From Multifurca ochricompacta (Eukaryota; Basidiomycota; Agaricomycetes; Russulales; Russulaceae): DNA of 64,000 nt. The stretch's first letter is position 1, and every line of letters begins with the position of its first letter. The notes beneath the pieces were generated by a model. The model did no database searches. It was not told the DNA's origin and saw nothing but the letters and a program-made list of their open reading frames with translations. Both the position numbers and the translations under genes were made by a program. Shown here in pieces: positions 1,541 to 57,520 of the stretch. Location: assembly GCA_022496185.1 (NCBI GenBank), contig WTXG01000037.1:180861-244860 (forward strand), given 5' to 3'.

Positions 1541-2962
1541 ATGTCTACTCCCGTTGGACCTGGTAGCGGAATTGTTAAGCTTCCCTTCCCTCTAAGACCC
1601 CGGTCACATGATAACATCCCGGAAGAAGAACGACCTGGTTCCCGATGGCTCGCCGCCAATGAAGAAGATGTAACCTGGAGTGGTTACTATTGGAAGCTGG
1701 ATAATATTAACATCCCGATAGAAACAATCTACGGTCTCTGGTTCGAGATCGCCTACTTTGAACATTTCAATGCCTGGATGGCAATTAAGGTCGCCCGCCC
1801 AGAAATGGGCCTCCCATCTAACCCACCGCAGGGACTCACTGTCAACACTTCTTATGCCACGGCTTTCGCTGGCGTAACTGCCGCGCCTACCACATTTCCA
1901 GAACCTCTCACATCACCGACACAAGCTATATCTAGAGCCCCAACTGTACCACAACCCGCACCCCCAACAACAACCAAATATGAGCGACTTGAGGGGTTGT
2001 TCCCGCTTAGATTCAACGGAGATCGCACAAAGACCGAAGACTTCCTCAAAGCGTTTGACTCTTTCCTCGAGTTAAATGACCGGTCCAAAGTTGCCATCGA
2101 CAAGGTGAAAAGGAGTCTCTACTTCCTGCAACAACTAGAAGGTCCTCAGGTCCAGGCCTTCTATAATAACTCGATCGATTTCCTTAAGCGAGCAAAAATT
2201 GACAGTAGCCTCATTCCACAGAATACTGACGCTTGGGCAATCATCGAGAGGCGGTTCCTCGATACGTTCTTCGACTTCACAATGAGGGAACAAGCATATG
2301 AATCAGTACAGAAATTACGGATGAAGGATGGACACATTGACGAATTCATCGCCTCCTTCAACATCTTAATTCAACGAGCTGGCCTCCACCCCGACGACCC
2401 TAGTACGATGCGTCTCTTTGCCTGGGGACTACAGGGCCACTTAGCAGAAAAATGTGTTGAACAACACTCCCCGATGACACTGGAGCAATGGCAAAAGGCA
2501 GCACAAACTCAACAACGGAATTTCATTATTGTCCAAGGTCTCCGCAGCAAGACAGCACATCCAACTAATGATCAGCCGTTCTGGCATTGACCTATAAACA
2601 GTCAAGCCCAACAATTACGACGAGACCACGACAATACGGATGCTAACACCATTCGACGTGCAGTTACCGACGACGACAAAGAACACTGCAAACGCGAAGG
2701 ATTGTGTTTCTATTGCATGCGGAAGGGACACCTATCTCGTGACTGCCCTCAGAAGAAGCCTCGCGTCGCAACTGCAACAACAGTTGACTCCCAGGTAATT
2801 GTCCCTACAGCTCAAAATACAACCCAAAGAACTTCGAAGGCGCCCGCGGATACACAACCCGATGTTGCTGCCATCGTCGCTATGATTAAAGGGTTAACCA
2901 AAGAACAGGAAGACCAGGTACAAACCCTACTCGCTGCTGATTCGGATTTTGTAACAGCCTGA
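1541..2962 (+). pseudogene. gag: G1 Gag (capsid and nucleocapsid), one in-frame TGA
   Basis: A structural polyprotein that would package element RNA. The first 349 codons include a retrotransposon-gag type helical domain in the middle to C-terminal part (FLKAFDSFLEL, WAIIERRFLDTFFD, HIDEFIASFNILIQRAG). A TGA at 2588-2590 interrupts the frame, which then stays open to 2960-2962. The distal part has a CCHC knuckle (C-X2-C-X4-H-X4-C) at 2705-2746. Because the frame is unchanged across the TGA and the knuckle lies beyond it, a CGA-to-TGA mutation is the simplest reading. Leaky termination is possible but the context (UGA CCU) is unremarkable. The start is the first ATG after the primer site. Confidence 0.85.
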
Positions 2963-5900
2963 GGGGTTGTCCCACCCTGAGGGCTATCGTAGATCGATTT
3001 GTACCGAAGTCTCTTTCAATACAAACCAACTTTTCTACTATTGGGACCATCTCCGCGCTCGTTGACAGTGGCGCGACCGAAAATTTCGTCAACAAACGAT
3101 TCATCTCTATACATAACTTGCTTACCTGCCCGCTACAAATACCAAAATCCCTCTCCAATGCCGATGGATCTGCAAATGCCGCCGGTCAAATCACTCATTA
3201 TCTTCCTTGCAGTGTTCAAACTGGCTCATCCGTCCACCTCCTTGACTTCTTTGTCGCAGATCTTGGTAAAGAAGATCTTATCCTAGGCTATCCCTGGCTT
3301 GCGCGAACTACACCGACCATCGATTGGCTTCAGGCAACCGTCCAAGAGGCCGTACATATCCTCCCGCGAGGACAAAAACATCACATGCCCACAGCCGCTT
3401 CTCTAGGACTCCTACCAGGGGAAGAACTCATCATGCGCATATCCCCATCCGCAGAACTCACAACACAACAGCCCCCGGATCTTGCTATACCATCACAATA
3501 CCAACAGTTCGCCAAAGTCTTCTCAGAGGACGAAGCCCTTCGCTTCCCAGAGGCACGCCAGTGGGATCACACGATCGACCTTAAATCTGATGCGCCAAAC
3601 ACCCTGGACTGTAAAATATATCCCCTCAATCCAAAAGAACAATTGGCACTTGAAGAATTCCTCCATGAACACCTCGCCAAGGGATACATCCGTGAGTCAA
3701 AATCACAATACGCTTCCCCCTTCTTCTTCGTCAAGAAAAAGGATGGTAAACTTCGACCGGTACAAGACTATCGCAAGCTCAACGAACACACCCTCCGCAA
3801 CACCTACCCATTACCCCTCATCGATGAACTGATCGCAAAAGTCCAGAACGCTGCACTATTCACCAAATTCGACATACGATGGGGTTACAATAACATTTGC
3901 ATCAAAGAAGGCGATCAGTGGAAAGCTGCTTTCAAAACAAATAAAGGCCTCTTTGAACCCCTGGTAATGTACTTCGGACTGACGAATTCCCCCGCAACTT
4001 TCCAAACGATGATGAACGCGATCTTTCGAAAAGAGCTCAACAAAGGATGGCTTGTAATATATATGGATGATATCCTTATCGCTACCTCAAACGATATTTC
4101 TTTCCACCAAAAATGTGTAACCCGCGTTCTACAAATCCTCTCAGACAACGATCTCTACCTGAAACTGTCAAAATGCATATTCCACACAACAAAAGTCGAT
4201 TACTTGGGCGTTATCCTTGAACACGGCGTTATCCGCATGGATCCAGCGAAAGTAAATGGTCTTATAGATTGGCCGACTCCCAAAACAGTAAAACAAGTCC
4301 GCAGTTATCTAGGATTCGGTAACTATTATCGCCGCTTCATCAAAGGATATTCACAACTCGCCAGACCACTCATCAACCTCACAAAGCTTCTAGTCCCATG
4401 GACATGGACCGACAAGGAAGAAGACGCCTTCCAAGGTCTAAAGAAGGCGTTTAGTAGTGCCCCGTCCTTCGACAGCCCCGTCTCGACCTCCCCTTCTTTG
4501 TCACAACCGATGCCTCAGGATACGCGATAGGGGCTGAACTATCCCAACAAGATGACGTAGGGCGACTACACCCGGTTGCATTCCTTTCCAAATCCCTCGA
4601 TCAAACACAACGCAACTGGGATATTTACGACAGAGAATTGTTCGCAATTTGGCTTCCTTTACAAGAATGGCGACAATACTTGATGGGTTCCCCTCATAAA
4701 TTAACCGTCTTCTCAGATCACCATAATTTACAGTACTTCCGAAAACCTCAAAACTTAATAGACGACAGGCCCGATGGCATCTCGATCTCATGGAATATAA
4801 CTTCGTAATAAAACCTATTCAGGGTAAACACAATATAATTGCAGATCTACTATCCCGCCGGCCGGATTACGATGATGGCAAAGGAGATAACGACCAAGAG
4901 ATTCTCCTGCCGGATGAGAACTGGTCCCTCGCAGTAATTCAACTTCAAGAAGACCCGGATTCCTATCGCGAGATTGTCAAGCAATTCCACGATCACCCAC
5001 TTGCTGGTCACCCTGGGCGACGGAATACGTGGGATCTAGTCTCTGAAATCTACGCTGGCCCAAACCTGCAACAATTTGTGACTGACTATGTCAAAGGATG
5101 TCACGAATGTCAAGCGTCAAAGCCCCACCGAAAAACTGATGTTCCCCTCTTCTCTTTCGATACTCTGGCTTCCGATGGACCCTTTCAGTATATCTCCCTC
5201 GATCTCATTACTGACCTCCCCGTGTCGCAGGGGCACAATGCTATCCTGACTATCGTTGATCAGGGGTGCTCCAAGTCTGCCAAGTTTATCCCATGCTCGA
5301 CGACGATCACTGGGACTCAGGTTGCCTCTCTCTACTTCAAACATCTCTTTCCCCTCTTTGGCATCCCCAAACGCGTCATATCCGATCGGGACCCTCGCTT
5401 CACCTCTAAGTTTGTTTCCAAACTCTGCTCGTTACTCTCTATATCACAGAATACTAGCACTGCTTTTCATCCACAAACGGACGGCCAATCGGAACGCATG
5501 AATCGCTGGGTTGAACAATACCTCCGCCATTGGACCTTTGGCAACCCCCACACCTGGGCTCCCCTACTCCCTATGGCTGAGTTCATACACAACAGATGGC
5601 GACACAATGGCACAAAACTCAGTCCACATGAATTACTGTTAGGCTTCCGACCTCGTCCCCCTACCTCTCGCATCTCGTCCCCAATACCCTCGTTAACAGA
5701 ACGTCTCTCTGCAATCCTCTCTGCTCGCCGAATCGCCACCCGTGTCCTCGCCGACATGACCCAAATCACTCCAGTATTTGCAGTTAACGACAAGGTCTGG
5801 CTCGAGGGTAGGAACATCTCCTCGCTCTTCCCCTCGCAGAAGCTTGCCCCGCGGCGTCATGGCCCATTCACAATTACTTGCGTTATCTCCCCCGTGGCTT

Positions 5901-6331
5901 TCAAGCTCGATTTACCACCCTCTTTGCGGATACACAACGTCTTTCACGCCTCCTTACTCTCGCCCTACATCACTACCCAAGCACATGGTCCATCACCCAC
6001 CCGCCCTCCGCCGGTCCTTGTCAATGGCGTCGAAGAAGTCGAGGTCGATCACATCATCAGTCACCGACATGCTGGTCGCACAGGTCGCCTTCAGTTTTTG
6101 GTTTGATGGAAGGGTTTTCCCTCTAGTGACAATGAATGGGTTGACTACCGCTATATTCATGCTGACAATCTCATTGGACGTTATCTTGCCTCCTTACCGC
6201 CGTCCATGTCCTCTTCGTTTCCTGCCCACATTCTCGCCAAACATGGCGTCATTAGCAAATCCTCTCCTCCTCCTCTCACGATCCGCATTCCTCCACGGGC
6301 ACGCACCTCCGCAAGTGACCCTGCGTTGTAG
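2941..6331 (+). pseudogene. pol: G1 Pol: protease, RT, RNase H, integrase, chromodomain
   Basis: The frame opens after a TGA at 2938-2940, overlaps the end of gag by 22 nt and is -1 to it; I see no canonical slippery heptamer. Protease has VDSGAT (3061). RT has KKKDGKLRP and the catalytic YMDD (about 4060-4071). RNase H is split by two one-base deletions, in a C run at 4460-4463 and in an A run near 4756. Integrase has an HHCC finger (CHEC at 5100), DDE residues (DLITDLP, SDRDPRF, TDGQSER) and a conserved C-terminal RIHNVFH segment. The C-terminal chromodomain begins EVDHIISHRH and is cut by TGA at 6104-6106, where relatives have Arg before WKGF. The frame is open again to TAG at 6329-6331. 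All enzymatic domains are recognisable but the copy is inactive as written. Confidence 0.93.
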
Positions 6332-7404: not shown

Positions 7405-7917
7405 TGTTGAACACAGGACATGTTTGGTGATGCTTCAGGCATCAGGAGATTAGATTAGCTACTTTGTGGACTAGATTAGATATCAGAGTTTCAGACTATT
7501 TACCATATCATTATTACTTTCTTTCTCACATTCCACAGTAGCTGACTGATGTACCTTAGTAATGATGTACAAGCATGTGATTCCTTACTGGCCAATGGCC
7601 TTAGTCCCTCTTGTTTATTGTTTGGACTTTGTCTGGCACTTGTGGACTTATTCCCAGTGCACAGACCATCCCTTGGAAAGTATATAAGGGTGTCTGTTTT
7701 GTCTCTTACACTTCAGAGTTTTCTTCACCTCTGAAGTGTAAGTCCAATCCTCTTTACTTACTAGCTTACCTCTGACTAACTGTCTTGTAGATAACTTGTC
7801 TTATAGGTGTGTAGTATAGTAATACAGAGTTTTCTTCACCTCTGAAGTATAACTTGTCTTATAGCCTAAACCACTAACCTTTACAGTCAGTATGCTGCAC
7901 CTCATGCCTGTTCAACA
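7405..7917 (+). repeat. Copia A 5' LTR (513 bp) with embedded introns
   Basis: Starts TGTTGAACACAGG and ends GTTCAACA, with the primer site directly after. TATATAAG is at 7681. A perfect 14-bp stem with 10-nt loop spans 7705-7742. Intron-like intervals are 7738-7790 (GTAAGT, CTAAC at 7776-7780, TTGTAG) and 7807-7864 (GTGTGT to TTATAG). The last 40 nt of the second interval (7825-7864) equal the joined flanks of the first (7714-7737 plus 7791-7806). Confidence 0.9.
7738..7864 (+). promoter_or_regulatory. Tandem leader introns in the Copia A LTR
   Basis: Exon A ends at 7737 (CTCTGAAGT). Intron 1 is 7738-7790. Exon B is 7791-7806 (ATAACTTGTCTTATAG). Intron 2 is 7807-7864 and contains A' (7825-7848) and B' (7849-7864). 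A'B' is identical to A spliced to B. B and B' both end in a pyrimidine-rich AG. Splicing has not been shown; the call rests on donor, branch and acceptor consensus and on the presence of the exact spliced sequence. Confidence 0.7.
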
Positions 7918-8580: not shown

Positions 8581-9070
8581 TGTTGAACACAGAAGATGTT
8601 CAGTGATGCTTCAGGCATCAGGTGATTAGATTAGCTACTTTGTAGATTAGATTAGATACCGGAGTCTCGGACTTTTTACATTATCATTATTACTTTCTTT
8701 CTCACATTCCGCAGTAGCTGACTGATGCACCATGTAACATGTGATTTCTGTAGTGGCCAATGGCCTTTGTCCCTCATACTTATTGTCTGGCACTTGTGGA
8801 CTTATTCCCAGTGCGCACAGACCATCCCTTGGGTATATAAGGGTGTCTGTTTCATCTCTTACACTTCAGAGTTTTCTTCACATCTGAAGTGTAAGTTCCA
8901 ATCTCTCTACTTACTACTTTACCTATAACTAACCATCTCTTGTAGATAACTTGTTTCTAGGTGTGTAGTATAGTAATATAGAGTTTTCTTCACATCTGAA
9001 GTATAACTTGTTTCTAGCTTAAACTGCTAACCTTCACAGTCAGTATGCTGTGCCTCATGCCTGTTCAACA
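8581..9070 (+). repeat. Copia B 5' LTR (490 bp)
   Basis: TGTTGAACACAG to GTTCAACA. TATATAAG near 8834. Leader-intron layout as in A: intron 1 8891-8945, exon B 8946-8960 (ATAACTTGTTTCTAG), intron 2 8961-9017 ending in the same 15 bases. Confidence 0.92.
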
Positions 9071-10002: not shown

Positions 10003-13000
10003 ATGTCTTCCATCATCTTCCCCCCCACTTTCAAGTTCAACAAACTTGATGGCTCCAATTGGCAACAGTGGTCGGTGTCCTTCACTGCCCTGTTGAGGAT
10101 TAATGGGATGAAGAGGCACATCATGCATGATGCCCCTGAGTTCCTGAATCCCCCAAAGCCAGAGGATGGGGAAAAAGATGACGAGTATGCCAAGCACTTT
10201 GCACTTTGGTCAGAACCAATGTACCTAGAATGGAACAGGGTGGAGGAAGTCCTCATGGGAGTTCTGGTGATGGTAACATCACCCAAAACATACTCCCAGA
10301 TTGCCTCTGACAGAACTTATCCGTCTGTCAATGCCAAATATGAGCATTTGGAATCGCTCTATGGCTCAGTAGGTAGCATGGCCACCTACAACTTGTGGTG
10401 TTCTGTGTCCTCCTTCTGCTTGGAGGAGGGCAAACAATTCAGACCCCAGTTGCAGTGTGTGTTGGATGTGAGGAGTACCCTCAAGGAAAATGGGATGGAG
10501 ATCTCTGATCTCCAGATGAGCTTTATTTTGCTCCAATCCCTACCTCCATCCTACAATGCCATTGCTGGCTCAATCCTGGCGTCAGGTTCTCCTGACTGCC
10601 TTTCCCCTCAGGACCTTGTACAAAGGTTCCTTAATGAGGAAAGCTGACTAGCCGGCCCTGCAGGAAGTGGTGTTGGGGCTGCCCTTAACAAGGCAGCCCA
10701 TGTCAACAAAAACAAATCCAAAAAACCAAATTTCATGCCACAACCTGCAGGTGCATCTTTGTCCAATGATGTCACCTGCTTCTATTGCCAGAAGCTGGGC
10801 CACAAGGCTAATGAATGTCAGCAAAGGAAACAGGACAGAGCCAATGCTGATGCAGGCAAAAAGGGCAACAAGAGGAAGGGGCAAGGCCCCAGTGTACAAA
10901 CAAACTCCACACAAGTAGCTACCATAGTTAATGGTAGTGGCAGAATACAGGAGGTGCATGAGACACCTCGCATTTCACTTTATTCTTTGACGGAAAATTC
11001 ACAAGAAATTGATGATGGCAGCAATCCTTGGATGATGGACAGCGGAGCCACCACTCACTTCACACCATACTTAGATGACTTCTCTGAGTATTTCCCACAT
11101 AAGGGACATCAGGTGACAATTGGTGATGGCTCCATAGTCCAAGTCGAAGGAACAGGCAAAGTCCTTCTCAAAACTCATAATAATTATGAGTTAGAGTTAA
11201 ACAATGTCTTTTATATGCCTGGCAGTGAAAGAATACTGTCCACAAGCTGCATCACCGACAAAGGTGGCTCAGTGGAATTTACTCCATCTGAGGTCAGAAT
11301 AAAGTACAATAATGCAATTATAGCAGAAGGTGTCAAGGCTATGGGACTCTATTGGGTCTTTGGGAAAACAATGCAGAACTTAAATACTGCTTCCCACAAA
11401 TCTGCATCAACTAGCCTTGAAACCTGGCATTTGTGCATGGGCCATATGTCTAAAGAGGCCCTCAAAAGATATGCTCCTAAGGCTGTAAAAGGCCTTAGCA
11501 TTGATAATAGCCAAGTGGAAGACAAGCCATGTTATGGCTGTGAAATGGGAAAATTGTGAAACAGGCATGAGGCGCAGCATACTGACTGTAGAGAGTTAGC
11601 GGGTTAGGCTAGACGAAGACAAGTTACTTCAGAGGTAGAAGAAACTCTATTATACTATACTACACACCTAGACGAAGACAAGTTCTATATACAGAGTTAG
11701 TCTCAAGGTAGTGATGATAGTAGAGAGGATGACTTACACTTCAGAGGTAGAAGAAACTCTGAAGTGTAAGAGATGAAACAGACACCCTTATATACTCTTC
11801 AAGGGATGGTCTGTGCACTGGGAATAAGTCCACAAGTGCCAGACATAGTCCAAACAATAAACAAGAGGGAGAAAGGCCATTGGCCACTACAGAAATCACA
11901 TGTTACATGGTGTATCAGTCAGCTACTGCGGAATGTGAGAAAGAAAGTAATAATGATAATGTAAATAGTCTGAAACTCCGGTATCTAATCTAATCTACAA
12001 AGTAGCCAATCTAATCACCTGATGCCTGAAGCATCACCAAACATCTCCTGTGTTCAACAAAAATCACACTGTCTTCCATTCCCTCCCTCTCAAAAGAGAG
12101 CTTCAGTGCCCTTGGAGGTCATTCATAGTGACTTAGTTGGTCCTTTGCAATGTACTTCAATTCAAGGAAACCTATACTTTGCCACTTTCATAGATGACTT
12201 TAGCAGGACAGCTCTAGTTGTTACTATGAAAGCAAAAAGTGATTTTACATTGGTCTTCTGTAACATTAAGGCATTCTTGGAAAATAAAACAGACAAGAAA
12301 ATAAAGACCTTACACACAGACCAAGGTGGCGAATTTGTCAATAGGGAGCTGAAGTCTATACTTGAGCAGGCTGGCATAGAGCATAAATTGACAATGCTGT
12401 ATTCCCCACAACAGAATGGAAGGGCTGAAAGGTTCAACAGAACCATTATGGAAAAGGCCACCAGTATGCTGCATCATGCTGGTCTTTCCCTTGGTTTCTG
12501 GGAATGTGCAGTGCGAACAGCCTGTCACATATACAATAGAACACCTATCCGCTCTAATAAGTGGAGGACACTGCTTGAGCTTCTGGATGGGGACATTCCA
12601 GATGTCTCCTACTTTAACATTTTTGGCTGCTTAGCCTATTACACTGTCCCAAAGGATAAAAGACGCAAACTGGATCACAAAGCCAGAGAAACAGTCTTTG
12701 TTGGGTATGCACCCCATTCAAAAGGATATTTACTATGGGATATGCATACTCGATCCTTCATATTGTCAAGAGATGTGACATTTGATGAAGGATCCTTTCC
12801 ATCCAACCTTGCCAAGGACAGCAAGGGAAAACAAAAGGAAAAAGTTATGCCTTTTGTACTAGAAGTTGAGAGGCCTGTCCAGCCTCAACCAGCAATAGCC
12901 ACAGTTCCTCAGGCTCCTGAAGACAAGGATGCCAAGGTTGAGGAACAGGAGGTAGTGGAACCTCCTCAAATAAATCCTGAGCCTACCACACCCGAAAGAG

Positions 13001-14871
13001 AAGACACACATGATGTCACTATCTATCAGATGCCTCTGTCCCAAATCATGGAACGATCAGAACTCCCTGAGAGAACCCATGCCAAAAGACAGTCTAAGAA
13101 AAAGAATGTTGGCAGACTTCCCCAGCTGGTATTTACTAGGGAAAGTCCACACTCTCAGCAATGTGACAGGGCTGTGCAGGAAGATTTAGATCTTGATACT
13201 GCCCATCCTAAATGTTCATGTCACATGAATCCTCGATTTTATAATGAGGATAATGCTGAGTTTGTACAGGGTTCTTCCAGACTTGGGCATATGGAATTGC
13301 TAAATGCTGCAGGTGTCTCTTATAGAGATCCCCTGACTTTAAAGGAGGCAATGCAGTCTGACAATGCCAGTGAATGGCTTGAGGCATGTAAATATGAAAT
13401 TGATGCCTTAGAAAAACTTGATGTGTGGTGCCTTGAAGATCTTCCAAAAGGAAGGAAGGCTGTCAAATCAAAATGGGTATTCAAGTTGAAACCAGATGGA
13501 TGGTTTCGTGCTAGGCTTGTGGCAAAAGGATTCACACAAGTAGAAGGAGTGGACTTTGATGAAACATTCTCTCCAGTCACCAGATTTGAATCACTTAGAT
13601 TATTACTAGTGCTAGCTACACTAGAGGATTGGGAAATCCACCAGATGGATGTCAAATCGGCATTCCTTCATGGCGATCTGGATGAAGAGATTTATATGGA
13701 GCAACCAATTGGTTTCATTGTTGCTGGTCAAGAGTCCAAAGTTTGTAGGTTACAAAAAGCATTATATGGCCTCAAACAAGCCTCCCGAGCATGGAATCTT
13801 CAATTCCATGGAGTTCTTAATGAACTAGGCTTCACTCGGACATACTCTGATGCAGGAGTATATGTGTTTCATCAAAAGGAGGGGGATGATTCACTTTATG
13901 TCATTCTCTATGTAGATGACATTACTATACTTGGATCTTCCAATGATAAGATAATGTGGCTGAAGTCATCACTATCTAATCGATATGAGATGACTGACTT
14001 GGGAGAGATCCAGTCATACCTTGGAGTTAACATCACCAGGGATTGTCCTAATAAGACACTGGAGATTGACCAAGCAGCCTATGTTTTATCTATTATTGAG
14101 AAGTTTGGGATGAGGGATTCCAACTGAGTATATACTCCTCTTCCCTCTGGTGCTGATGTACATCTGGTCAAGTTTGATGGCCAGGCATCTACTTCTGAAA
14201 TAAAGAAGTACCAACAGTTGATGGGGTCTCTGCTATGGGTGCAGATTGGAAGCAGACCTGACATCAGTTTTGCTGTGGCGCACCTTAGTCAATATGCTTC
14301 CAACCCCTCTCAGGATCACATGCAATTAGCAAAATATGTCTTAAAATATCTTAATAGTACAAAAGACTATAAATTGCAGTATTCTGGAGGGAATGGGGAG
14401 AGTGGCCTTCATGGCTTTGCAGATTCCTCATGGGGAGATCAAGAGGACTGCCACTCTACCTCAGGCTACGTGTTTTTCTTGGCAAATGGTGCCATTTCAT
14501 GGTGTTCCAGAAAGCAGAAAACAGTAGCACAGTCCACCACTGAAGCTGAATATATGAGCCTCTCTGAGGCTGCAAATCAGGCAGCGTGGTATAGGACTTT
14601 TATGGAGGAATTAGGGTATGAGGTATCCTCCCCTATATTACTCCACTGTGATAATAAGGGTGCTGTGGATTTGGCATTAAACCCAGTCACAGGAAGGCGG
14701 TCAAAGCATATTCCCATCAAGTACCATGCCATTAGGGGGTATATTGAATTGCACATAATTGAGTTAGTGCATACCCCCACAGGTGAGATGCTGGCAGATG
14801 GCTTCACTAAGTCTCTACCAAGAGCATCATTTGAAACCATGGTCAATGGACTTGGACTTATGCTGGAATGA
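10003..14871 (+). pseudogene. gag-pol: Copia B Gag-Pol, split by a solo LTR and two TGA codons
   Basis: The start ATG at 10003 is preferred over one at 9967 because it is the position conserved in A, D and H. Gag has a UBN2-type helical domain (MATYNLW, LKENGMEISDLQMSFILLQSLPPSY). TGA at 10645-10647, followed by CTA, comes before the CCHC knuckle (CFYCQKLGHKANEC). Protease has WMMDSGATTHF (near 11038). The HHCC finger (WHLCMGHM, CYGCEMGK) is cut by the solo LTR at 11555. Integrase has HSDLVGP, HTDQGGEF and QQNGRAER. RT has KSKWVFKLKPDG, QMDVKSAFLHGDL and YVDD (near 13909). A second TGA at 14125-14127 stands where copy F has CGA. RNase H (TEAEYMS, HCDNKGAVDLALNP) runs to TGA at 14869-14871. 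The frame is unchanged throughout. Confidence 0.9.
11555..12059 (-). repeat. Solo Copia LTR (505 bp) inside Copia B integrase
   Basis: F-subfamily LTR in reverse orientation with perfect target duplication AAAAT (11550-11554 and 12060-12064). No internal sequence. Sense-strand leader introns are intron 1 11685-11737 and intron 2 11609-11667. Exon B (11668-11684) and its copy both read AACTTGTCTTCGTCTAG, a variant shared by the two copies but different from copy F (TTTG). The insert with duplication is 510 bp, so the host frame is kept. Confidence 0.93.
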
Positions 14872-15164: not shown

Positions 15165-15655
15165 TGTTGAACACAGAAGATGTTCGGTGATGCTTCAGGC
15201 ATCAGGTGATTAGATTAGCTACTTTGTAGATTAGATTAGATACCGGAGTCTCGGACTTTTTACATTATCATTATTACTTTCTTTCTCACACTCCGCAGTA
15301 GCTGACTGATGCACCATGTAACATGTGATTTCTGTAGTGGCCAATGGCCTTTGTCCCTCATACTTATTGTCCAGCACTTGTGGACTTATTCCCAGTGCGC
15401 ACAGACCATCCCTTTGGGTATATAAGGGTGTCTGTTTCATCTCTTACACTTCAGAGTTTTCTTCACATCTGAAGTGTAAGTTCCAATCTCTCTACTTACT
15501 ACTTTACCTATAACTAACTGTCTCTTGTAGATAACTTGTTTCTAGGTGTGTAGTATAGTAATATAGAGTTTTCTTCACATTTGAAGTATAACTTGTTTCT
15601 AGCTTAAACTGCTAACCTTCACAGTCAGTATGCTGTGCCTCATGCCTGTTCAACA
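15165..15655 (+). repeat. Copia B 3' LTR (491 bp)
   Basis: Near-identical to 8581-9070. Intron 1 15476-15530, exon B 15531-15545, intron 2 15546-15602. It joins directly to G2' gag at 15656 without a target duplication. Confidence 0.92.
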
Positions 15656-19004: not shown

Positions 19005-19498
19005 TGATGAACAGGCATATGTGCGCAGTGATACTGACTGTTAGTTAGCATGTGAGGCTAGAAACAAGTTATACTTCAGAGGTGAAGAAAACTCTGTATT
19101 ACTATACTACACACCTAGAAACAAGTTATCTACAAGAGACAGTTAGTTAGAGGTAAAGTAGTAAGTAGAGAGAATGGGACTTACACTTCAGAGGTGAAGA
19201 AAACTCTGAAGTGTAAGAGACGAAACAGACACCCTTATATACTTCAACAGGATGGTCTGTGCGCAATGGAATATGCTAGAATGTACTACTGAGGGACTAA
19301 GGCCATTGGCCAGTGAGATATCACATGCTACACAGGATTACTAAGGTACATCAGTCAGCTGCTGCGCATCGCGAGAAAGAAAGTAATAATGATAAGGTAA
19401 AAAGTCCAAGACTCCGAATCTTTATCTAATCTAATCTTGCACAGCTTAGACCCTAACCCAGATGCCTGAAGCACCTCAAGACACATGCCGTGTCAACA
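19005..19498 (-). repeat. Copia D 3' LTR (494 bp)
   Basis: Left edge TGATGAACAGG, right edge GTGTCAACA. Sense-strand intron 1 is 19130-19184, exon B 19115-19129, intron 2 19058-19114 ending in the same 15-nt exon B sequence. A purine tract (TCCCTCC as read here) follows at 19499. Confidence 0.93.
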
Positions 19499-25566: not shown

Positions 25567-26060
25567 TGATGAACAGGCATATGTGTGCAGTGATACTGAC
25601 TGTTAGTTAGCATGTGAGGCTAGAAACAAGTTATACTTCAGAGGTGAAGAAAACTCTGTATTACTATACTACACACCTAGAAACAAGTTATCTACAAGAG
25701 ACAGTTAGTTAGAGGTAAAGTAGTAAGTAGAGAGAATGGGACTTACACTTCAGAGGTGAAGAAAACTCTGAAGTGTAAGAGACGAAACAGACACCCTTAT
25801 ATACTTCAATGGGATGGTCTGTGCGCAATGGAATATGCTAGAATGTACTACTGAGGGACTAAGGCCATTGACCAGTGAGATATCACATGCTACACAGGAT
25901 TACTAAGGTACATCAGTCAGCTGCTGTGCATCGCGAGAAAGAAAGTAATAATGATAAGGTAAAAAGTCCGAGACTCCGAATCTTTATCTAATCTAATCTT
26001 GCACAGCTTAGACCCTAACCCAGATGCCTGAAGCACCTGAAGACACATGCCGTGTCAACA
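25567..26060 (-). repeat. Copia D 5' LTR (494 bp)
   Basis: Twin of 19005-19498. Sense-strand intron 1 is 25692-25746, exon B 25677-25691 and intron 2 25620-25676. The primer site is immediately outside at 25555-25566. Confidence 0.93.
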
Positions 26061-26570
26061 CAGGTTAGGCTGCAAAGACAAGTTACTTCAGAGGTAGAAG
26101 AAACTCTATATTACTATACTACACACCTGCAAAGACAAGTTCTATATACAGAGTTAGTCTCAAGGTAGTGAAGATACAGTGCCTCACAAAACTGAGTCAA
26201 TGTTTTGCACTTTTGCACTGTTTGTTGAATATCACATCAGCCAAAACAAATATAAACAAAGTCTTGGTAGACCATAAAAGGTACAAGATAAGGGTTATGT
26301 AATGCAACAATGATTATGTAATTCTGATCAAAACCTGTGGAGCTATGCCCATTTCAAATTGGGGACTCATTGACTCAGTTTTGTGAGTGGGTATCAGAAA
26401 TATCAGAATCTGATGCTCCACCAAATGTACAGCAACCAATCCTTAATATATGGTTACCATAGTTGTCTTAATATTGATGGGACCTGGAATAGAGCTATTT
26501 AACCATGGTTTACATTCCCAGAATATTATAATTTCCCAATGCACCCCACCTCCTCTGCTCAGAAAGAAAC

Positions 26571-26981
26571 ATGCTCTCTCTGGCCTCTGAAGGTCATTCC
26601 ACTGACACTATTGCCTCCAGACTCAGCCTCAGCCAGTCCACAGTCTCTAGGACACTCAGAACCCTCCTTCCCAACCATCAGTCACCTCATTTTGGTCATC
26701 TTTCCAAGCTCTCTGCTTTCTCTGAACATCCTATCATGATACAAATCACCACAGGAAAGGTTGCCAATGCTGTCCAGGCCACAAAGCACATCAATTCCAT
26801 CATCCCCAACCATGTCTCTTCACAAACTGTGCATTGGGTTCTTAAACAACATTCATTCAAGGCTGTAACAAAGAAGAAAAGGCCACTACTCTCTGCAGTA
26901 CATTGCAAGAAGCACTTAGCCTTTGCTTTGAAGTACAGAGAGTGGACTGTGGAGGACTGGCATCTGACCCAAATCTGTTGA
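26571..26981 (+). pseudogene. Tc1 transposase N-terminal half, left arm
   Basis: Encodes the two helix-turn-helix DNA-binding domains (LASEGHSTDTIASRLSLSQS, then NHVSSQTVHWVLKQH). It runs to WTVEDW, where the palindrome turns and homology ends with HLTQIC. The catalytic DDE domain is absent. A complete Tc1 transposase is about 340 residues; this arm covers about the first 130. Confidence 0.85.
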
Positions 26982-27428
26982 TTTTGGTCTCATCTGACCA
27001 AATGACCCTCTTCCAGTCCTCCATAGTCCAGTTTTGGTACTTCAAAGCAAAGGCTAAGTGCTTCTTGCAATGTACTGCAGAGAGTAGTGGCCTTCTTTGT
27101 TACAGCCTTGAATGAATGTTGTTTAAGAACCCAATGCACAGTTTGTGAAGAGACATGGTTGGGGATGATGGAATTGATGTGCTTTGTGGCCTGGACAGCA
27201 TTGGCAACCTTTCCTGTGGTGATTTGTATCATGATAGGATGTTCAGAGTAGCAGAGAGCTTGGAAAGATGACCAAAATGAGGTGACTGATGGTTGGGAAG
27301 GAGGGTTCTGAGTGTCCTAGAGACTGTGGACTGGCTGAGGCTGAGTCTGGAGGCAATAGTGTCAGTGGAATGACCTTCAGAGGCCAGAGAGAGCATGTTT
27401 CTTTCTGAGCAGAGGAGGTGGGGTGCAT
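26920..27428 (-). pseudogene. Tc1 transposase N-terminal half, right arm
   Basis: Mirror copy of the left arm on the minus strand. It extends slightly further, to WTMEDWKRVIWSDETKINRF, which carries the first catalytic Asp region of Tc1 transposases. The frame differs between 27428 and 27232 by a small deletion relative to the left arm (near 27250). Neither arm can make an active enzyme. Confidence 0.82.
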
Positions 27429-29378
27429 TGGGAAATTATAATATTCTGGGAATGTAAACCATGGTTAAATAGCTCTATTCCAGGTCCCATCAATATTAAG
27501 ACAACTATGGTAACCATATATTAAGGATTGGTTGCTGTACATTTGGTGGAGCATCAGATTCTGATATTTCTGATACCCACTCACAAAACTGAGTCAATGA
27601 GTCCCCAATTTGAAATGGGCATAGCTCCACAGGTTTTGATCAGAATTACATAATCATTGTTGCATTACATAACCCTTATCTTGTACCTTTTATGGTCTAC
27701 CAAGACTTTGTTTATATTTGTTTTGGCTGATGTGATATTCAACAAACAGTGCAAAAGTGCAAAACATTGACTCAGTTTTGTGAGGCACTGTAGTAGAGAG
27801 GACAACTTACACTTCAGAGGTAGAAGAAACTCTGAAGTGTAAGAGATGAAACAGACACCCTTATATACAATTCCAAGGGATGGTCTGTGCACTGGGAATA
27901 AGTCCACAAGTGCTGGACAAGGTCCAAACAATAAACAAGAGGGAATAAGGCCATTGGCCAGTAAGGAATCACATGCTTGTACATCATTACTAAGGTACAT
28001 CAGTCAGCTACTGTGGAGTGTGAGAAAGAAAGTAATAAAGATATAGTAAAAAGTCCGAAACTCCGGAATCTAATCTAATCCACAAAGTAGCTAATCTAAT
28101 CTCCTGATGCCTGAAGCATCACCAAACATGTCCTGTGTTCAACATCCCTCCATGCTGAAGGCATCTGGTCATAGATGGGAAATGAGTTGAATGAGCACAC
28201 TGCCATTTCAACAATTGAATGAGCATATCACCAGCCAACAATGTTGAGAATGAGTCGATGAGAAGTGTGGGTTGTGAGTTTTGCATATGAGTTGTATATT
28301 TGCTTATGCAAGCTAAAATGCTTGACATATTTGAATGTCCACTTCTGGCATACACACCACTTGCGTCACTCTCAAGGTCGAGAATGTGCTCATGTTGCAT
28401 GGTGGGAAAGTGAGACTGGTATACAAAGTCTCTAGATCCCAGCTCTCTCATTCCAGCACTAATCCAAGTCCATTGACCATGATTTCAAAGGATGCTCTTG
28501 GTAGAGACTTAGTGAAGCCATCTGCCAGCATCTCACCAGTGGGAGTTCACACTAAGTCAATTATGTGTGATTCTATGTACTCCCTAATGGCATGGTACTT
28601 GATAGGTATGTGCTTTGACTGCCTTCCTGTGACAGGGTTTAATGCCAAATCTATGGCACCCTTATTGTCACAGTGGAGTAGTATAGGGGAAGATACTTCA
28701 TACCCTAATTCCTCCATAAAAGTCCTATACCATGCTGCCTGATTTGCAGCCTCAGAGAGGCTCATATACTCAGCTTCAGTGGTGGACTGTGCTACTGTTT
28801 TCTGCTTTCTGGAACACCAGGATATGTGTCACAACCTACCCAGCTGTTACGAACAGGGCCCAGCAGCCCCATTTTCTTCACTCTTCCCAACTGGGACCCC
28901 ACTCGTCCACCAACCCTTCACTTCCTTATTATGTCTCCCTCCTGGGACCCCTCACATGCGTTGCTTCCATCCCCATGACTGTTGTTTGGACTTGTGTATC
29001 TACCATTTGTCTATGCTTGTATCTTCTTATCTTTTATCTTCTTATCTTTACGACTGGACATTTACTTAATCCCCTATCAGAAGCCAGGCTTTACGCCATC
29101 CACTTTCGTATCTTTGGGCCCACATGACTCCAATATCCTTATCTATAGACACCCATCCATTTATGTATATAAGTCCGTCTTAGCTATGCTGTAGACCTCA
29201 GACTCGACTTATTGAATACATCGGTGTTCGTCTTTCGGACTTCCCTTTGCAATCTCTGACTCATCTGTCTCAGTGCTTTTGGCACTTTCCGTTCAACATT
29301 GTCTTAGGGAACAGCCCCTTCGACTTTGACTTGTCCCCTTAGAACTCCAAGAGGTCCTATTGACCCCTTATCTGAAAC

Positions 29379-32079: not shown

Positions 32080-32584
32080 TGTGAAACAGGCATGAGGCGC
32101 AGCATACTGACTGTGGAGAGTTAGCAGGTTAGGCTAGACAAAGACAAGTTACTTCAGAGGTAGAAGAAACTCTATTATACTATACTACACACCTAGACAA
32201 AGACAAGTTCTATATATAGAGTTAGTCTCAAGGTAGTGATGATAGTAGAGAGGATGACTTACACTTCAGAGGTAGAAGAAACTCTGAAGTGTAAGAGATG
32301 AAACAGACACCCTTATATACTCTTCAAGGGATGGTCTGTGCACTGGGAATAAGTCCACAAGTGCCAGACATAGTCCAAACAATAAACAAGAGGGAGAAAG
32401 GCCATTGGCCACTACAGAAATCACATGTTACATGGTGTATCAGTCAGCTACTGCGGAATGTGAGAAAGAAGGTAATAATGATAATGTAAAAAGTCCGAAA
32501 CTCCGGTATCTAATCTAATCTACAAAGTAGCTAATCTAATCACCTGATGCCTGAAGCATCACCGAACATCTCCTGTGTTCAACA
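32080..32584 (-). repeat. Copia F 3' LTR (505 bp)
   Basis: About 98% like the solo LTR at 11555-12059. Sense-strand intron 1 is 32210-32262 (GTAAGT to ATATAG), exon B 32193-32209, intron 2 32134-32192. Both exon B copies read AACTTGTCTTTGTCTAG. Confidence 0.92.
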
Positions 32585-36244: not shown

Positions 36245-36757
36245 TGTTGACACAGGACGTGTCTGGAGATGCTTCAGGCATCTAAGTTTCGCTTCAGCTG
36301 TAGATAAGATTAGATTAGGTTCCGGAGTTTCGGACTTTTTACGATATCTTTATTACATTTCTTTCTCACCTTACTCAGCTGATTAGTGATACCTTTAGTA
36401 ATGCGCAGTAAGCACGTGATATCTCTTTGGCCAATGGCCTTAATCCCTCTCTGTTTATTGACCGGCACTTGTGGACTTATTCCCAGTGTGCACAGACCAT
36501 TTCCCCTGGCCCCTATGGGTATATAAGGGTGTCTGTTTCGTCTCTTTCACTTCAGAGTTCTTCTAACCTCTGAAGTGTAAGTTCCCTTTACTCTACTCTC
36601 TCACTACCTATAGACTAACCTATTATATTAGACTTGTCTTTATCTAGGTGTGTAGATAGTAATACAGAGTTCTTCTAACCTCTGAAGTACTTGTCTTTAT
36701 CTAGCCTCACACGCTACTAACCACAGTCAGTATAACCAGCAGCATGATTGTTTGACA
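36245..36757 (+). repeat. Copia H 5' LTR (513 bp)
   Basis: TGTTGACACAGG to GTTTGACA. TATATAAG near 36521. Intron 1 36577-36631, exon B 36632-36647 (ACTTGTCTTTATCTAG), intron 2 36648-36704. The intron 2 tail is the exact splice of A to B. The hairpin loop here is TTCTTCTAAC, different from other subfamilies, and both copies share it. Confidence 0.9.
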
Positions 36758-42648: not shown

Positions 42649-45600
42649 TTAACTGTTCTTAGGCGCTTCTGGGTGTCGGGCGTGGAACTCTGCGATAAGG
42701 ACCGGGGCAGAGATATCTCCGGCTGGTTCCCATGAGTTGTCAGAGGCTGGGAATCCCTTCCACTTAATTAGGTAGTATAACTTGCGCCCTTGGCCTTGTC
42801 GCTTCGAATCTAGAATGTGTTCTACTTCCCACTCTTCTTCCCCATTGATAAGGTCAGGTGGCGGTCTCGGGAAGTTTTCTCTGTGCAGAGGCGTCTCTTT
42901 GTAAGGGGTGAGTAATCTGGCATGGAAGACCGGGTGAATGCGCCATGCAGGGGGGAGTTTGAGTTCATATGACACGTCTGACAGCTTCCTTGTTATCTTG
43001 AAGGGTCCGTGACGTCGGGGCGCTAACTTGGCTGTTGGGTGTGAGGTGTGAATGTTCTTCCCTTCCAGCCAAACCAGGTCATTGGTTCGATAAGGTATGA
43101 ACCTTGTGGGCTTCTCTGCCAGGGTCTTTTGCGCCTTCAACAAGTTCTCATTGGCCGATTTCCGGATCTCTTCCCATTGGTTGATACGCTGGGTGGCCGA
43201 AGGGACGTTCGTCGGCTTTCCGGTCCATGTGGCTCGAGGCGTCCATCCCATGATAAGTGAGAATGGGGAGTGTTTCGTGGTGCCATTAGGCCAGGAGTTG
43301 TGTGCAAATTCTGCCGTTGCAAGCCAGTCCGCCCAGTCGTCCTGTCGTCCATTGCACCAAAATCGAAGGTACTGTTCAAGCCACTGATTTGTCCTTTCCG
43401 ACTGTCCATCTGTCTGTGGATGGTATGCTGTGGAGATGTTTTGCGCGATGTTGAGTGTTCTGCAGAGTGCCCTGGCGAACGTGGATGTGAAGCGTGGGTC
43501 ACGGTCTGAGATGATCTTTTCGGGAAGGCCATAGTGTCTGTAAACATGATCTAGGTAGAGCTTGGCCACTCCTTCTGCCGTGATGGATTCATTGCAGGGT
43601 ATGAACAACGCTGCTTTTGAACAGTCATGGTCAGTGATGGTCAGGATTGAGTCGAAGCCTCTGGAGGTGGGGAGTTTGACAACGAAGTCCATGGCTATTG
43701 TTTGGAACGGTTGCGAAGTTGTCGGTGTGATTGGGAACAATGCTGGCGGGTGTGGGTGTGTATTCACTTTGTTGGCCTGGCAATCTGCGCATCCTTTCAC
43801 GTATTCTTCTACGTCCTTCTTCATGTTCGGCCACCAGTAGTCTCGTTTGGCAAGGGCGTAGGTGTTAGCGATGCCGGGATGTCCTGCAGAGGGGAGATCG
43901 TGGTGAAAATGGATCACCCCCCTCTTAATGTTGTCGCCACCGGTGACAACGAGTCGATCCCCGTCCTTCCACCAGAGGCCGTCCACTTTCTTCAGATTAT
44001 GTGCATCCGCCCAAGTTTCGCATAGTTGTTGATTCATATTTTGCGACACCTGGGCCCATAAATCCATGTCATGAAGACTGACAACAGCCGTCCTCGTGAA
44101 AACTTCCTCTGGGAGTACTGTCACATCATTGTTGTCCTCTGCACCATTATTTAGGTCAGGTCGTCTTGATAGGGCATCTGCACGAGCATTACGACTTCCA
44201 GCAATGTGTTTCAACTCAAAGTTGTACTCTTCGAGTTCCAAGACTTCGCGGGCGACCCGTCGGCTTATTTTATGGGGTTCCTTCCAATAGAGTAGGTTGG
44301 AGTGGTCAGTATGAATGATGGTCTTGTGAGGTGTTCCCGCTAGGTATGGTCGCCAATGTCATAGCGCTTTCACAATAGCAAGCAATTCCCTATCCCAGAT
44401 GTCATAGTTTCATTCCGCTGGTGAGAATGTTTCCGAATAGAAGGCGACTGGGTGAAGTAGCCCTGCTTCATCTCTTTGATTTAGTATGGCTCCATTAGCA
44501 AAGTGGGATGCGTCGACCTCGAGTTCGAAGGGCTTCTTCAGATCCGGCTGTAAGAGGACTGGTTCTGAACCAACGATGTCTCGGATCTGCTCAAAGGCCC
44601 ACTGATGCTCTTCTGTCCAGTGCCAGGGTACATCCTTCTTCAACAGTCCATTTAGCGGTTGAGCGATTCCTGAAAATCCCTTGACAAATCGTCGATAGAA
44701 GTTGCAAAATCCGATGAAGGACCGCACATCCTTGACACACGTAGGTATGGGCCACTCTCGGATTCCCTGTACTTTTATCGGGTCCATCCGTACGTGTCCT
44801 CCTTCCAGGATGACTCCCAGATACTCAATGCTTTGTTGTTCGAACGAGCATTTGGCCGGTTTAAGGTATAGGTCATGCTCGCATAGGATGTCCAACACCT
44901 GGTGTACTCGCTTTCGATGATGGGTTAGGTTATCCGTCGTAGCCACCAGTATATCGTCCATGTATACTACCACTTCGCCAGTGAGAATAAGGTCGCGGAA
45001 AATGTGATTCATCATAGACTGAAAAGTGGCGGGCGAGTTGGTAAGGCCGAAAAACATGACATTCGGCTCAAAGAGCCCTTGGTTGGTTTTAAACGCTGCT
45101 TTACACTGGTCTCCCTCTTTGATCTGAATATTGTTGTAGCCCCAACGGACGTCCATCTTGGAGAATAAGGACTTGTCCCGCATAGTATCAATGAGCTCCG
45201 ATATGAGTGGCAGTGGGTAGGCATTTTTCACAGTATGGGCATTTATTCGTCGGTAGTCTTGTACAGGTCGAAGTTTGCCATCTTTCTTTTTGATGAAGAA
45301 GAATGGTGACGCGTATGGTGATTTCGACAGACGAATGTATCCCTTGGCGAGATGTTCCTCGAGGAAAGTCGTGAGTGCTGCTTGTTCTGCCTGAGACAGT
45401 GGGTAGATTTTACAGTCGATTGCTGCTGGCGTATCCGGTGTGAAATCGATGGCGTGGTCCCATGGTCTGGCAGGAGGAAAGCGTTGCGATTCCTCCTCGG
45501 AGAACACCTTCCAGTGCCGGTGGTACTCCTCAGGCACTACCTCCTCGAAGGTCCTTTCCGTATACCCTTCCACCGCTTTCTGCGCAAGTTCTGATGCTTT

Positions 45601-46131
45601 GGTAGCGAAGCAGTGGCCTGGATCTTCCTCTTCTTCTTTTACCCTCCGCACTGCCGAGTGTCGGGCTGCATAGTCGTACCCCATTGACGTGATAAGAACG
45701 GGGTAGGAATCTTTATCCATGGTGGCATCACTCCAGTTAATCCTGGGTTCGAATGCAGCGAGCCAGGGGTATCCTAAAACCAAATCCTCTTCACCAAGAT
45801 TGGTGACCAGGAAGCATATGATCTTCGTTCTTTCCCCTACTTGGACACTGAGGTCAGTGTAATGTGTGATTTTTCCCGCTCGGTTGGCAGTCCCATCAAT
45901 ATTCCAGATATTCTTTTCCTGAGGGAGTGCCAGCATCCCCAATCCCATAGTTCTTGCCATTCGTGGGCTAATAAAGTTATCGGTGGCTCCTGAGTCGATC
46001 AGGATGTCACGGTCGGCCGTCCTCTGTGTAGTCTCGAAATGCACTGGTATTTTCAAAGATTTGAAGCGACTAGTATACACAGAGGTTACATGTAATGCTC
46101 GCGCCCAGGCCGATGGGGTAGAGCCAGTCAA
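42649..46131 (-). pseudogene. pol: G2 Pol: protease, RT, RNase H, integrase, chromodomain
   Basis: The frame overlaps the gag stop and is -1 to it (gag TGA 46128-46130). Protease has LIDSGATDNF (near 46005). RT has KKKDGKLRP and YMDD (near 44960). RNase H follows, interrupted by TGA at 44408-44410 and another near 44357, each where conserved Arg is expected (NYDIWDREL and HWRPYLAG contexts). The frame is otherwise unchanged to 42649. Integrase has an HHCC finger (CADC), DDE residues (AMDFVVKLP, SDRDPRF, TDGQSER). The C-terminal chromodomain is intact (EWEVEHILDSKR, YLIKWKGFP, SWEPAGD). Apart from two CGA-to-TGA changes the enzyme set is complete. Confidence 0.93.
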
Positions 46132-47642
46132 AAATCCTTTTTCGCAAATGCCTTTTCCACTAGGATGGCTCGCACTTCTTCACTTTCCTTCATCATGTTG
46201 GCCCATATTTCTTGTGCCTTTTCCTCCTTCGTCGTCGTCTTTTTGTCAACCGTTGGTGGGTTGTTGCGGACAGGCGTAACGGTTGCTTCTGCCGCACGCA
46301 CTCCCTTCTTCGGGCATTCCCTTGACATGTGCCCTTGCGCTTTGCAGTGAAAGCACCGTCCTTCTTTCATCAACGTCTGCCTCTCGTCCTCCGTAAGGGC
46401 GACGCGTGCCCTGGTTCTGTCCGCAGAGGTATCCATTGCGTTTGGATCCCTCTGACTGGTGTGTGTGGGTTTAACCCCAAAGGCGGCCTTCCATTGGTCG
46501 CGGGTCTTTCCCTTCCTGGTGTCGACTCCGAAGCGGGTCTGAAAGTCAAGGTAATCCTGCTGCTGTCGCCGGGCAGTGTCGACCCATGTATCCCAGTCAT
46601 TGGGATGGTGGAATTGGATAATATTCTTTACCAGGGGGTTAGGCAGCCCTTGGGAGAAGAGGTCCAACGTTGCCTCTTCATCCGTGTCATAACCGGCCCT
46701 GTTGGCCAAACTTCTGAACTTTGCCACATAGGCATCCAGCTCTCCTTTCTCCATCTTTAGAGCTTTTAATTCCCGGGCCGCCTTCTGCTTCGCCTGCCCA
46801 TCCGTATATGCATCTTTAAACCGCTGGGCAATGGTTTCCCAAAGCCCTTCACTAGTGGTACGACGCCCACTTTCGATCTGCTCGTTCAGCCACTCCAGCT
46901 GCTCCATGGTCCAATCGTCTACGGCCTCCCCTCGGATCAGTGATAAGAAGAGGTTGGCGCGTTGGAAAGGATTAATAATTTGGGGAACATCATGGTTGAA
47001 GTTTTTGAACGTGGTAAACTCCAACATGAACTTTTTGCTTTGTGATCGATCCCCTGTAAACGTTTGTGGTAGTACACCTGACAGACGTCCTGATGGCGGG
47101 GGAATGTTCGGTGGCAGCATGGCTGGTGGTGGTGGAGGAGGGGGAGCCGGATCTGGGAGCTGGGTGGCGATCGTGGACATGTTTTGGTAAAATGGGGTGA
47201 CGGTGTCTGTAGACTGTATGGAAATCTGGGGGGTTGTCAAAGCAGGGGCTCTGATCGTGACAACTCCGGGTGCAACTGGGGCTGTAGTCGACGCTAATAC
47301 CAGTGCTTCTTCGCTATTTTCTTCTACGTACTCTTCTGGCTCAGAGTCCGTAACAATGGCTGGGGGATTTTCTCTCCACGGCCCTAATCCAAATTCAGGC
47401 GGAGCAGGTCCTGTAGTGACCCACGAGTTTCGACTATCCGAGTATCGGATACGGTACCAAACTCTTCTCTCGTCGTCGTATTCTACCGGTTGGTATCTTC
47501 CGTCGTGATAGACGTAGTATCCAAACTCGGATTCAAAGTCTTTCCAAGCGGCAGAGCCAAGTACTTGTTGTGAAAGATTATTCTCGTCTCTGCGTTCGAT
47601 GAGTTCTTCTTTAAAGAGGGTCTGACTGCGGCTGGAAGCCAC
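46128..47642 (-). CDS. gag: G2 Gag, intact but with GTG at the start position
   Basis: A 504-residue frame. The start position holds GTG (47640-47642), while the related G2' copy has ATG at the same codon, and the next in-frame ATG is about 150 codons downstream. N-terminal domain WKDFESEFGYYVYHD to GLGPWREN, then a Pro-rich linker (PAPPPPPPP). The central retrotransposon-gag domain includes FTGDRSQSKKFMLEF and YVAKFRSLANRAGY. One CCHC knuckle (CFHCKAQGHMSREC) lies near the C-terminus. The leader is only 19 nt and is almost entirely the self-primer site. Translation would need non-ATG initiation or this copy has lost its start. Confidence 0.88.
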   Translation of the reverse strand: MASSRSQTLFKEELIERRDENNLSQQVLGSAAWKDFESEFGYYVYHDGRYQPVEYDDERRVWYRIRYSDSRNSWVTTGPAPPEFGLGPWRENPPAIVTDSEPEEYVEENSEEALVLASTTAPVAPGVVTIRAPALTTPQISIQSTDTVTPFYQNMSTIATQLPDPAPPPPPPPAMLPPNIPPPSGRLSGVLPQTFTGDRSQSKKFMLEFTTFKNFNHDVPQIINPFQRANLFLSLIRGEAVDDWTMEQLEWLNEQIESGRRTTSEGLWETIAQRFKDAYTDGQAKQKAARELKALKMEKGELDAYVAKFRSLANRAGYDTDEEATLDLFSQGLPNPLVKNIIQFHHPNDWDTWVDTARRQQQDYLDFQTRFGVDTRKGKTRDQWKAAFGVKPTHTSQRDPNAMDTSADRTRARVALTEDERQTLMKEGRCFHCKAQGHMSRECPKKGVRAAEATVTPVRNNPPTVDKKTTTKEEKAQEIWANMMKESEEVRAILVEKAFAKKDF

Positions 47643-57067: not shown

Positions 57068-57520
57068 GTCAATCATGATGACTGACAACAAAGGTGGATG
57101 TACATAGACATGTTATCCCACAACCCAAATGGTTAGTTATATTTTGTCATTATGTGGTTTGTAAGAGCTAGAAAAGTGAGTAGCTCAGTCTTTGGAACAG
57201 AAAGACTGTATTGCAAGGTAATAAGTACCTAGAAAAGCAAGTAGCTACAACAAAGAATTAGCAAAAGACAATGTAGCTATGAAGAGAATGGTACTGACCT
57301 CAGTCTTTGGAACAGAAAGCTGAGGATACTAACTATGTGAATAGTCCTATAATAAAGCAATCAAGTAAGAAATATGCTGCATGCTGTGGCTGCTATTCCA
57401 ACACATAATACAGCTTGCATATTTTATTCTACATACTTAAAAAACAGTTTCCTGCTGTTAAACACCCAAAACTGAAATACATGACTCCAATGCAGATAGC
57501 TATGAGGCAGGCTCAGGAGA
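57068..57520 (-). repeat. Decayed Copia-like LTR with the leader-intron layout
   Basis: No base-level similarity to the Copia LTRs above, but the same internal order on the minus strand. A TATA-like TTTATTATAGG lies near 57350. A hairpin CTCAG/CTGAG exon A (57299-57319 side) comes next, then intron 1 57245-57298 (GTCAGT, TGCTAAT, TTGTAG), exon B 57229-57244, and intron 2 57168-57228 (GTACTT to TTCTAG) whose tail is A joined to B with two mismatches. The outer limits are uncertain and no target duplication was identified. Confidence 0.6.

Follow-up and report, generated by a model that had tools for sequence, protein, structure and literature searches.

A sequence that has passed through RNA is classically recognized by its lost introns, and the locus described here suggests how a retrotransposon might carry two introns within its long terminal repeats (LTRs) through that passage. 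The window, meaning the whole 64-kb stretch of DNA that was analysed, contains at 7405-7917 (plus strand) an LTR of a Copia family, here called F1, in which two apparent introns are followed by what reads as their own spliced product. The F1 introns seem to survive passage through RNA because the element stores this product, and the evidence for such a route is set out below.

Layout of the F1 LTR and its copies

The LTR at 7405-7917 (TGTTGAACA...TGTTCAACA) has TG..CA ends and was aligned with the other LTRs of the window. A TATA box, TATATAAGGG, at 7681-7690 lies 34 nt upstream of A7715 and is followed by exon A (7715-7737), intron 1 (7738-7790; 53 nt, GTAAGT..CTAAC..TTGTAG), exon B (7791-7806), intron 2 (7807-7864; 58 nt, GTGTGT..TATAG) and U5 (7865-7917), all on the plus strand. 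Intron 2 consists of a spacer (7807-7824) and a pre-spliced copy of A and B, termed A'B' (7825-7864, plus), the putative landing site for strong-stop cDNA. As the initial annotation had claimed, A'B' equals A joined to B minus the GT..AG intron 1, letter for letter. The exon and intron coordinates likewise stood as first given, except for the first base of A, which had been counted as 7714-7737, giving 40 nt for A plus B: C7714 matches its counterpart in just 28 of 111 dissected copies, so the copied unit most likely starts at A7715 (AGAG), and A7715 is the more likely transcription start by this comparison. Directly after the LTR, from 7918 (plus), stands the primer-site-like GGTTATGGGCCC, a putative match to initiator Met tRNA that holds the same position after 5' LTRs.

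Nine F1 LTRs, one of them interrupted, were found in the window, and the seven intact ones other than 7405-7917 each carry their own version of the layout. On the plus strand these are a second LTR at 8581-9070 and a member of a diverged subfamily at 36245-36757, both of the same layout by alignment, and a copy of the same layout at 15165-15655 with a single C/T difference between A and A'. On the minus strand, the LTR at 11555-12059 has a C in both B and B' where that at 32080-32584 has a T in both, whilst 25567-26060 and 19005-19498, again of the same layout, are the 5' and 3' LTRs of one element with the target-site duplication ACCTG. Intron 1 of the 25567-26060 copy is 1-2 edits apart from that of three sampled loci (L011, L018 and L024), whose U3 is 0.52-0.63 alike to its own. 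The interrupted LTR (26065-28144, minus; inner limit approximate) has within its intron 1 a 1.6-kb insertion (26175-27792) that is 96.5 % self-complementary; ends like those of this insertion were also seen in L084, beside sequence of a third family described below.

Besides the window, the dissected sample comprised 110 loci from that genome. These loci were non-random, having been fetched for the F1 LTR (best window matches, first-listed places and best matches to an intron-free LTR), and included 20 stretches picked from 40 places. The 154 TATA-box places reduced to 140 distinct ones, namely 111 with the full layout, 20 intron-free LTRs, the two LTRs L045 and L049, three truncated or interrupted copies and four non-LTR places. 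Genome-wide, the TATA box with TGTCTGTTT and CAGAGTT downstream gave 1508 exact matches, and a pattern count gave 1576 donor-bearing A exons. F1 is thus very large, with 1508-1576 exact matches to LTR core patterns in a 53.8 Mb genome. A scan for the layout itself, defined as 40-120 nt bounded by GT..AG with the joined 11+11-nt flanks recurring within 320 nt, returned 123 matches in 715,556 bases, counting both strands of the window and the 110 loci, with overlaps counted twice in places. All but one of these (122) fell in F1, the other belonging to another family, and the same sequence block-shuffled once returned none. The identity of A'B' with AB is more than chance.

Intron 1 begins with GTAAGT in 109 and contains CTRAY in 110 of the 111 full copies, and its length is 49-57 nt (95 copies). 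AG precedes B in all 111 under a fit that favours AG, and in 107 of 107 copies found without that favour. Intron 2 starts with GTCAGT, GTGTGT or GTTAGT and ends in AG, with no clear branch site among the F1 copies. Both intervals are predicted to be spliceosomal introns by their GT..AG ends and fungal size, and intron 1 also by its branch motif. By eye, the spacer ends in AATANA in many F1 copies, which prompted the idea of a poly(A) signal lost on splicing, an idea that we do not put forward.

A proposed replication route and the LTRs lacking introns

The layout, its exact boundaries, the concerted evolution of its repeats, the intron-free insertions and the hairpin complementarity are all present in the DNA itself. 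To account for them, we propose that the R region houses two spliceosomal introns together with a ready-spliced copy of the leader. RNA would begin at A, and its 5' leader would lose both introns to give A-B-U5, such that strong-stop cDNA made from the spliced leader would end at the cap. In RNA through the 3' LTR, a hairpin formed by the final bases of U3 with the 3' end of exon A would hide the donor and exon A, so that the introns would stay and A'B'-U5 would offer the open landing site. The cDNA would anneal to A'B'-U5, and extension through the spacer, B, intron 1, A and U3 would restore both introns. Each cycle of this kind would therefore rewrite A'B' with the sequence of the parent's 5' LTR, whilst the 3' LTR of the parent would supply A, intron 1 and B. 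Were the cDNA to land on A, the product would be an intron-free LTR. Splicing in living cells, the landing step, the role of the hairpin and the frequency of the spliced route are inferences from sequence, and we consider it very probable that spliced-leader cDNA lands on A'B' of the 3' LTR in F1 and that the introns are thereby copied back.

Intron-free LTRs are present in the genome. A pattern search found 56 exact A-B-U5 LTRs, each with the B-U5 junction, in 35 AB versions, of which 12, accounting for 24 copies, are identical to the spliced AB of an intron-bearing copy in the dissected set. Five LTRs lack only intron 2 (six pattern matches, the sixth, C595, being dropped as not LTR-like by eye), whereas genome-wide patterns for loss of only intron 1 and for an additional tandem unit had no match, the tandem pattern fitting 99 of the 111 dissected spacers. 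On the dissected copies, the donor-bearing pattern reached 109 of 111 and the A-B-U5 pattern 19 of the 20 intron-free LTRs. Nine insertions among these 20 were readable on both flanks, and eight of them (three element pairs and five solo LTRs) carry target-site duplications, that of one pair being off by one base; the solo LTR L076 has none. The duplications indicate that the intron-free state was fixed at reverse transcription, and the intron-free LTRs would in effect be cDNA records of the doubly spliced leader. Joint loss of both introns is the product expected of landing on A instead of A', and loss of intron 2 alone that expected of RNA retaining intron 1. These LTRs also narrow two claims of the initial annotation. 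That the cDNA can anneal only to A'B' was too strong, as the same A lies upstream and the 56 A-B-U5 LTRs fit annealing there. That the introns are spliced from every RNA and restored in every new LTR was likewise overstated, since five LTRs keep intron 1 without intron 2, which points to the copying of incompletely spliced RNA.

The 3' LTR offers a candidate switch between these outcomes. A 14-bp hairpin joins a left arm at 7705-7718 (plus), formed by the last 10 bases of U3 and the first four of exon A, to a right arm at 7729-7742 (plus), comprising the last bases of exon A together with the donor of intron 1, GTAAG. Folding gave -20.1 kcal/mol and a z of -7.0, and all 70 leaders examined (the first 70 that were distinct) retain 12-14 of the 14 pairs when wobbles are included. 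The U3 arm is absent from RNA that starts at A and present in RNA through the 3' LTR. Mean unpaired probability of the donor was 0.457 in the leader, 0.241 with U3 and 0.370 with shuffled upstream sequence; U3 lowered it by more than 0.2 in 48 of 70 leaders, an effect that is modest in folding. Changes of the outer U3 arm showed no compensation within F1, and the hairpin was therefore compared across F1 and the two further families described below. In nine chosen rows from the three families, four of 12 hairpin pairs are changed on both sides and pairing is found in 91.7 % of cells but in no more than 40 % once the partner is slid, whilst two of the five measures in this comparison were not clearly above shuffles (49/500 and 158/500). 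On this folding model, the hairpin would mask the intron-1 donor and exon A in 3' LTR RNA.

One variant concerns the loss step only, namely that intron-free LTRs arise from spliced 3' LTR RNA and not from cDNA landing on A. It would yield the same A-B-U5 product, and we regard it as rather unlikely: independent splicing of the two introns should also give losses of intron 1 alone, of which there are none, and the hairpin would, by folding only, hide the 3' donor.

Joint change of the exons and the ends of the copied unit

Rewriting of A'B' from a spliced leader would tie the two copies of each exon together. A'B' equals its own AB in 105 of the 111 dissected copies, A equals A' in 108 and B equals B' in 107, even though the same copies contain 22 versions of A, 52 of B and 64 of AB. 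When A'B' was dealt at random among copies (2000 shuffles), matches averaged 3.6 and never exceeded 11. The mean edit distance between AB and A'B' is 0.06 within a copy and 5.8 between copies, and the AB nearest to a given A'B' is its own, alone or tied, in 110 of 111 cases (uniquely in 43). Of the 1451 pairs whose U3 is at least 0.90 alike, drawn from the 110 copies with U3 and not independent of one another, 1355 differ in both AB and A'B' and 93 in neither; A'B' alone differs in three pairs and AB alone in none. By these comparisons A evolves together with A', and B with B', and the direction of the result is plain.

Two element pairs allow a closer look. In the element flanked by the duplication AAGTG, both LTRs (L045 and L049) have a B that ends in CTAT and a B' that ends in CTAG. 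As this mismatch is common to both LTRs, it was already there at insertion, and in this single case it fits an origin of B in the 3' LTR of the parent and of B' in the parent's 5' LTR. In L054 and L055, which also belong to one element (duplication CAAAT), the length of a T run differs between the LTRs in B and B' alike, and other runs differ too. Such joint change lies outside the model's predictions, and our guess is sequencing error in runs.

The copied unit has sharp ends. In 107 of 111 copies the 12 nt that follow A' have an upstream match, always immediately 3' of AG; the left limit of the match is AGAG, and the match never extends beyond B in any of the 111. The unit would therefore begin at the start site, cross the intron-1 junction and stop at the donor of intron 2, its copy in A'B' reaching as far as the acceptor of that intron. 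A unit that ends at this acceptor requires exon B to resemble a 3' splice site, and exon B indeed ends in AG and is pyrimidine-rich.

The bases next to the two copies behave differently. A is preceded by C in 111 of 111 copies, whereas A' is preceded by T in 73, C in 28, A in six and G in four. Pairs whose U3 is at least 0.97 alike number 89, and A' is preceded by different bases in 51 of them, A in none. Across these pairs 2.1 % of sites differ in U3 and 16 % in intron 1 plus B, so part of the variation before A' would come from reshuffling of R against U3. In 46 pairs chosen for near-identical intron 1 and equal AB, the base before A' still differs in 10, the rest of the spacer differing at 3.0 % per site. 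Within elements it is constant, being the same in all seven LTR pairs with 5-bp duplications (L034/L036, L037/L039, L042/L043, L045/L049, L054/L055, L058/L059 and window 25567-26060/19005-19498). Two candidate pairs whose LTRs lie 6 kb apart, and in which the base before A' differs, were not counted as elements, one differing throughout (L095/L096) and the other having mismatched flanks (L103/L104). Three further pairs (L092/L093, L100/L101 and L108/L109) agree before A' but have incomplete flanks, and the two flanking bases that can be seen in L100/L101 mismatch. A base that varies among relatives and is constant within an element seems to vary at replication, and we infer that untemplated addition at the landing cDNA end may be the source.

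These observations bear on a reading in which the usual template is the unspliced leader, by R-to-R transfer at A, and the spliced route is an occasional one that rewrites A'B' now and then. U3 and R do appear to reshuffle near the start site, and near-identical R cores under very different U3s suggest that unspliced-leader transfer or other recombination probably also happens; the five LTRs with intron 1 and without intron 2 likewise fit the copying of incompletely spliced RNA. As the main route it is nonetheless unlikely. The base before A is invariant (a constraint that the promoter may impose) whilst close relatives show a hypervariable base before A', B changes fast yet almost always agrees with B', and neither intron-1-only losses nor extra tandem units were found.

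Far less probable is that DNA gene conversion, or selection for complementarity, keeps A like A' and B like B' without splicing. The repeats are short and lie 58-111 nt apart, and could in principle convert. Conversion tracts of ~23 and ~16 nt would need ends that coincide exactly with the start site and with the splice boundaries, maintained through changes in the length of B (14-18 nt), and both exact splice junctions would still have to be explained in 56 LTRs. A single ancestral spliced-cDNA insertion, passively inherited as a fossil, would account for one LTR and is hardly credible for 64 AB versions that mostly match their own A'B' and that change jointly among close relatives, unless another process keeps the copies alike. 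Gene conversion and fossil duplication were both rejected on the identity of A'B' with its own AB, the exact boundaries and the joint change. The core proposal of the initial annotation, that cDNA of the doubly spliced leader primes on A'B' and copies the introns back, is in turn supported by predictions that go beyond it: co-evolution of A with A' and B with B', exact splice boundaries, intron-free LTRs with many exon versions and both splice junctions, and a B/B' mismatch shared by both LTRs of an element.

Further families and relation to known systems

Scans blind to sequence identity found the same layout in a second (F2) and a third (F3) family. An F2 LTR-like unit with other exons lies at 57160-57403 (minus), with A at 57321-57299, intron 1 at 57298-57245, B at 57244-57229 and intron 2 at 57228-57168, the last containing A' (57207-57184) and B' (57183-57168). 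Further F2 copies are in L066 and L014, and by pattern the genome contains 115 donor-bearing and two intron-free F2 places; an F2 search of the sampled loci returned no F1 LTR among its matches. F3 copies with the layout and the hairpin are at L071:114-260 and L037:790-1075 (minus), and one at L052:970-1260 has intron 1 and lacks intron 2. The CACTTCAG/CTGAAGTG stem is common to F1 and F3. In five F2 and F3 copies, A and A' are identical in four and one off in one, and B and B' identical in two, one off in two and two off in one, whilst AB of same-family copies is 3-11 edits apart. In the window F2 copy B and B' have TG against CA, a difference that a single CG decaying in two ways would leave, and L014 and L037 have one such difference each. 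Taken with F1, at least three families of one fungus probably follow an LTR cycle with introns in the DNA phase and none in the RNA phase, steered by a hairpin specific to the 3' LTR, with A'B' serving as a one-generation-old memory of the parent's 5' LTR.

The ~1,600 copies amount to a natural archive of the ends and landing places of cap-proximal cDNA, through which genomes could reveal first-strand transfer, untemplated addition and intermolecular transfer. They also raise the question of why the introns are kept, as intron-free versions recur yet stay few (56 against 1576, by pattern). To our knowledge no copia element has been described in which R contains an intron pair along with its spliced duplicate, and we know of no earlier account of LTRs that restore spliced introns. 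Among the titles and abstract beginnings listed from open-licence PMC papers, none concerns introns restored in LTRs, and a layout pattern with 27 fixed bases gave no matches in viral_contigs.

By domain order F1 is a Ty1/copia element: a pol fragment at 12022-14127 (plus) encodes rve (integrase core), SH3_retrovirus and RVT_2, in that order. It resembles that class in having integrase before reverse transcriptase, TG..CA LTRs, and 5-bp target-site duplications (e.g. AAGTG in L045/L049 and GATTA in L062/L073), and a putative primer site adjoins the 5' LTR. Named protein relatives among the matches listed (120 of 306) occur in Fibroporia radiculosa (57 %), Trametes, Pleurotus, Agaricus and Serendipita, and relatives are listed as well from plants, an insect and an alga. 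Judging by these named fungi, the host is probably an agaricomycete. The window also contains Ty3-type elements at 1541-6106, 42649-47642 and 48249-51087, one of which has a chromodomain match.

Several known systems share parts of the proposed design. In DIRS-type elements an internal copy serves as the template that restores sequence absent from the RNA, as in the F1 model. What these elements restore is their ends, within a tyrosine recombinase life cycle and with no spliced introns, whereas F1 encodes an rve integrase. Penelope-like elements keep introns, as F1 does, persistence there being attributed to routes other than a stored spliced template. In foamy viruses the donor controls polyadenylation, and we know of no acceptor in R, no intron that is lost and restored and no pre-spliced copy; they are also retroviruses with an RVT_1 polymerase, in contrast to the RVT_2 of the Copia family F1. 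The LTR1 lentiviral vector has an engineered change of strand transfer that skips one transfer, as outlined in PMC5542766; the content of its RNA and provirus differs, as would that of F1, and the outline describes no intron restoration. The foamy virus R region nevertheless offers a parallel: according to PMC3694450, the major splice donor lies in R near the cap, is used in the 5' LTR and, by probing, folds differently in RNA of the 3' LTR that extends upstream of the start. F1 likewise has a predicted donor in R near the putative cap and, by folding, a candidate for a comparable switch in the 3' LTR.
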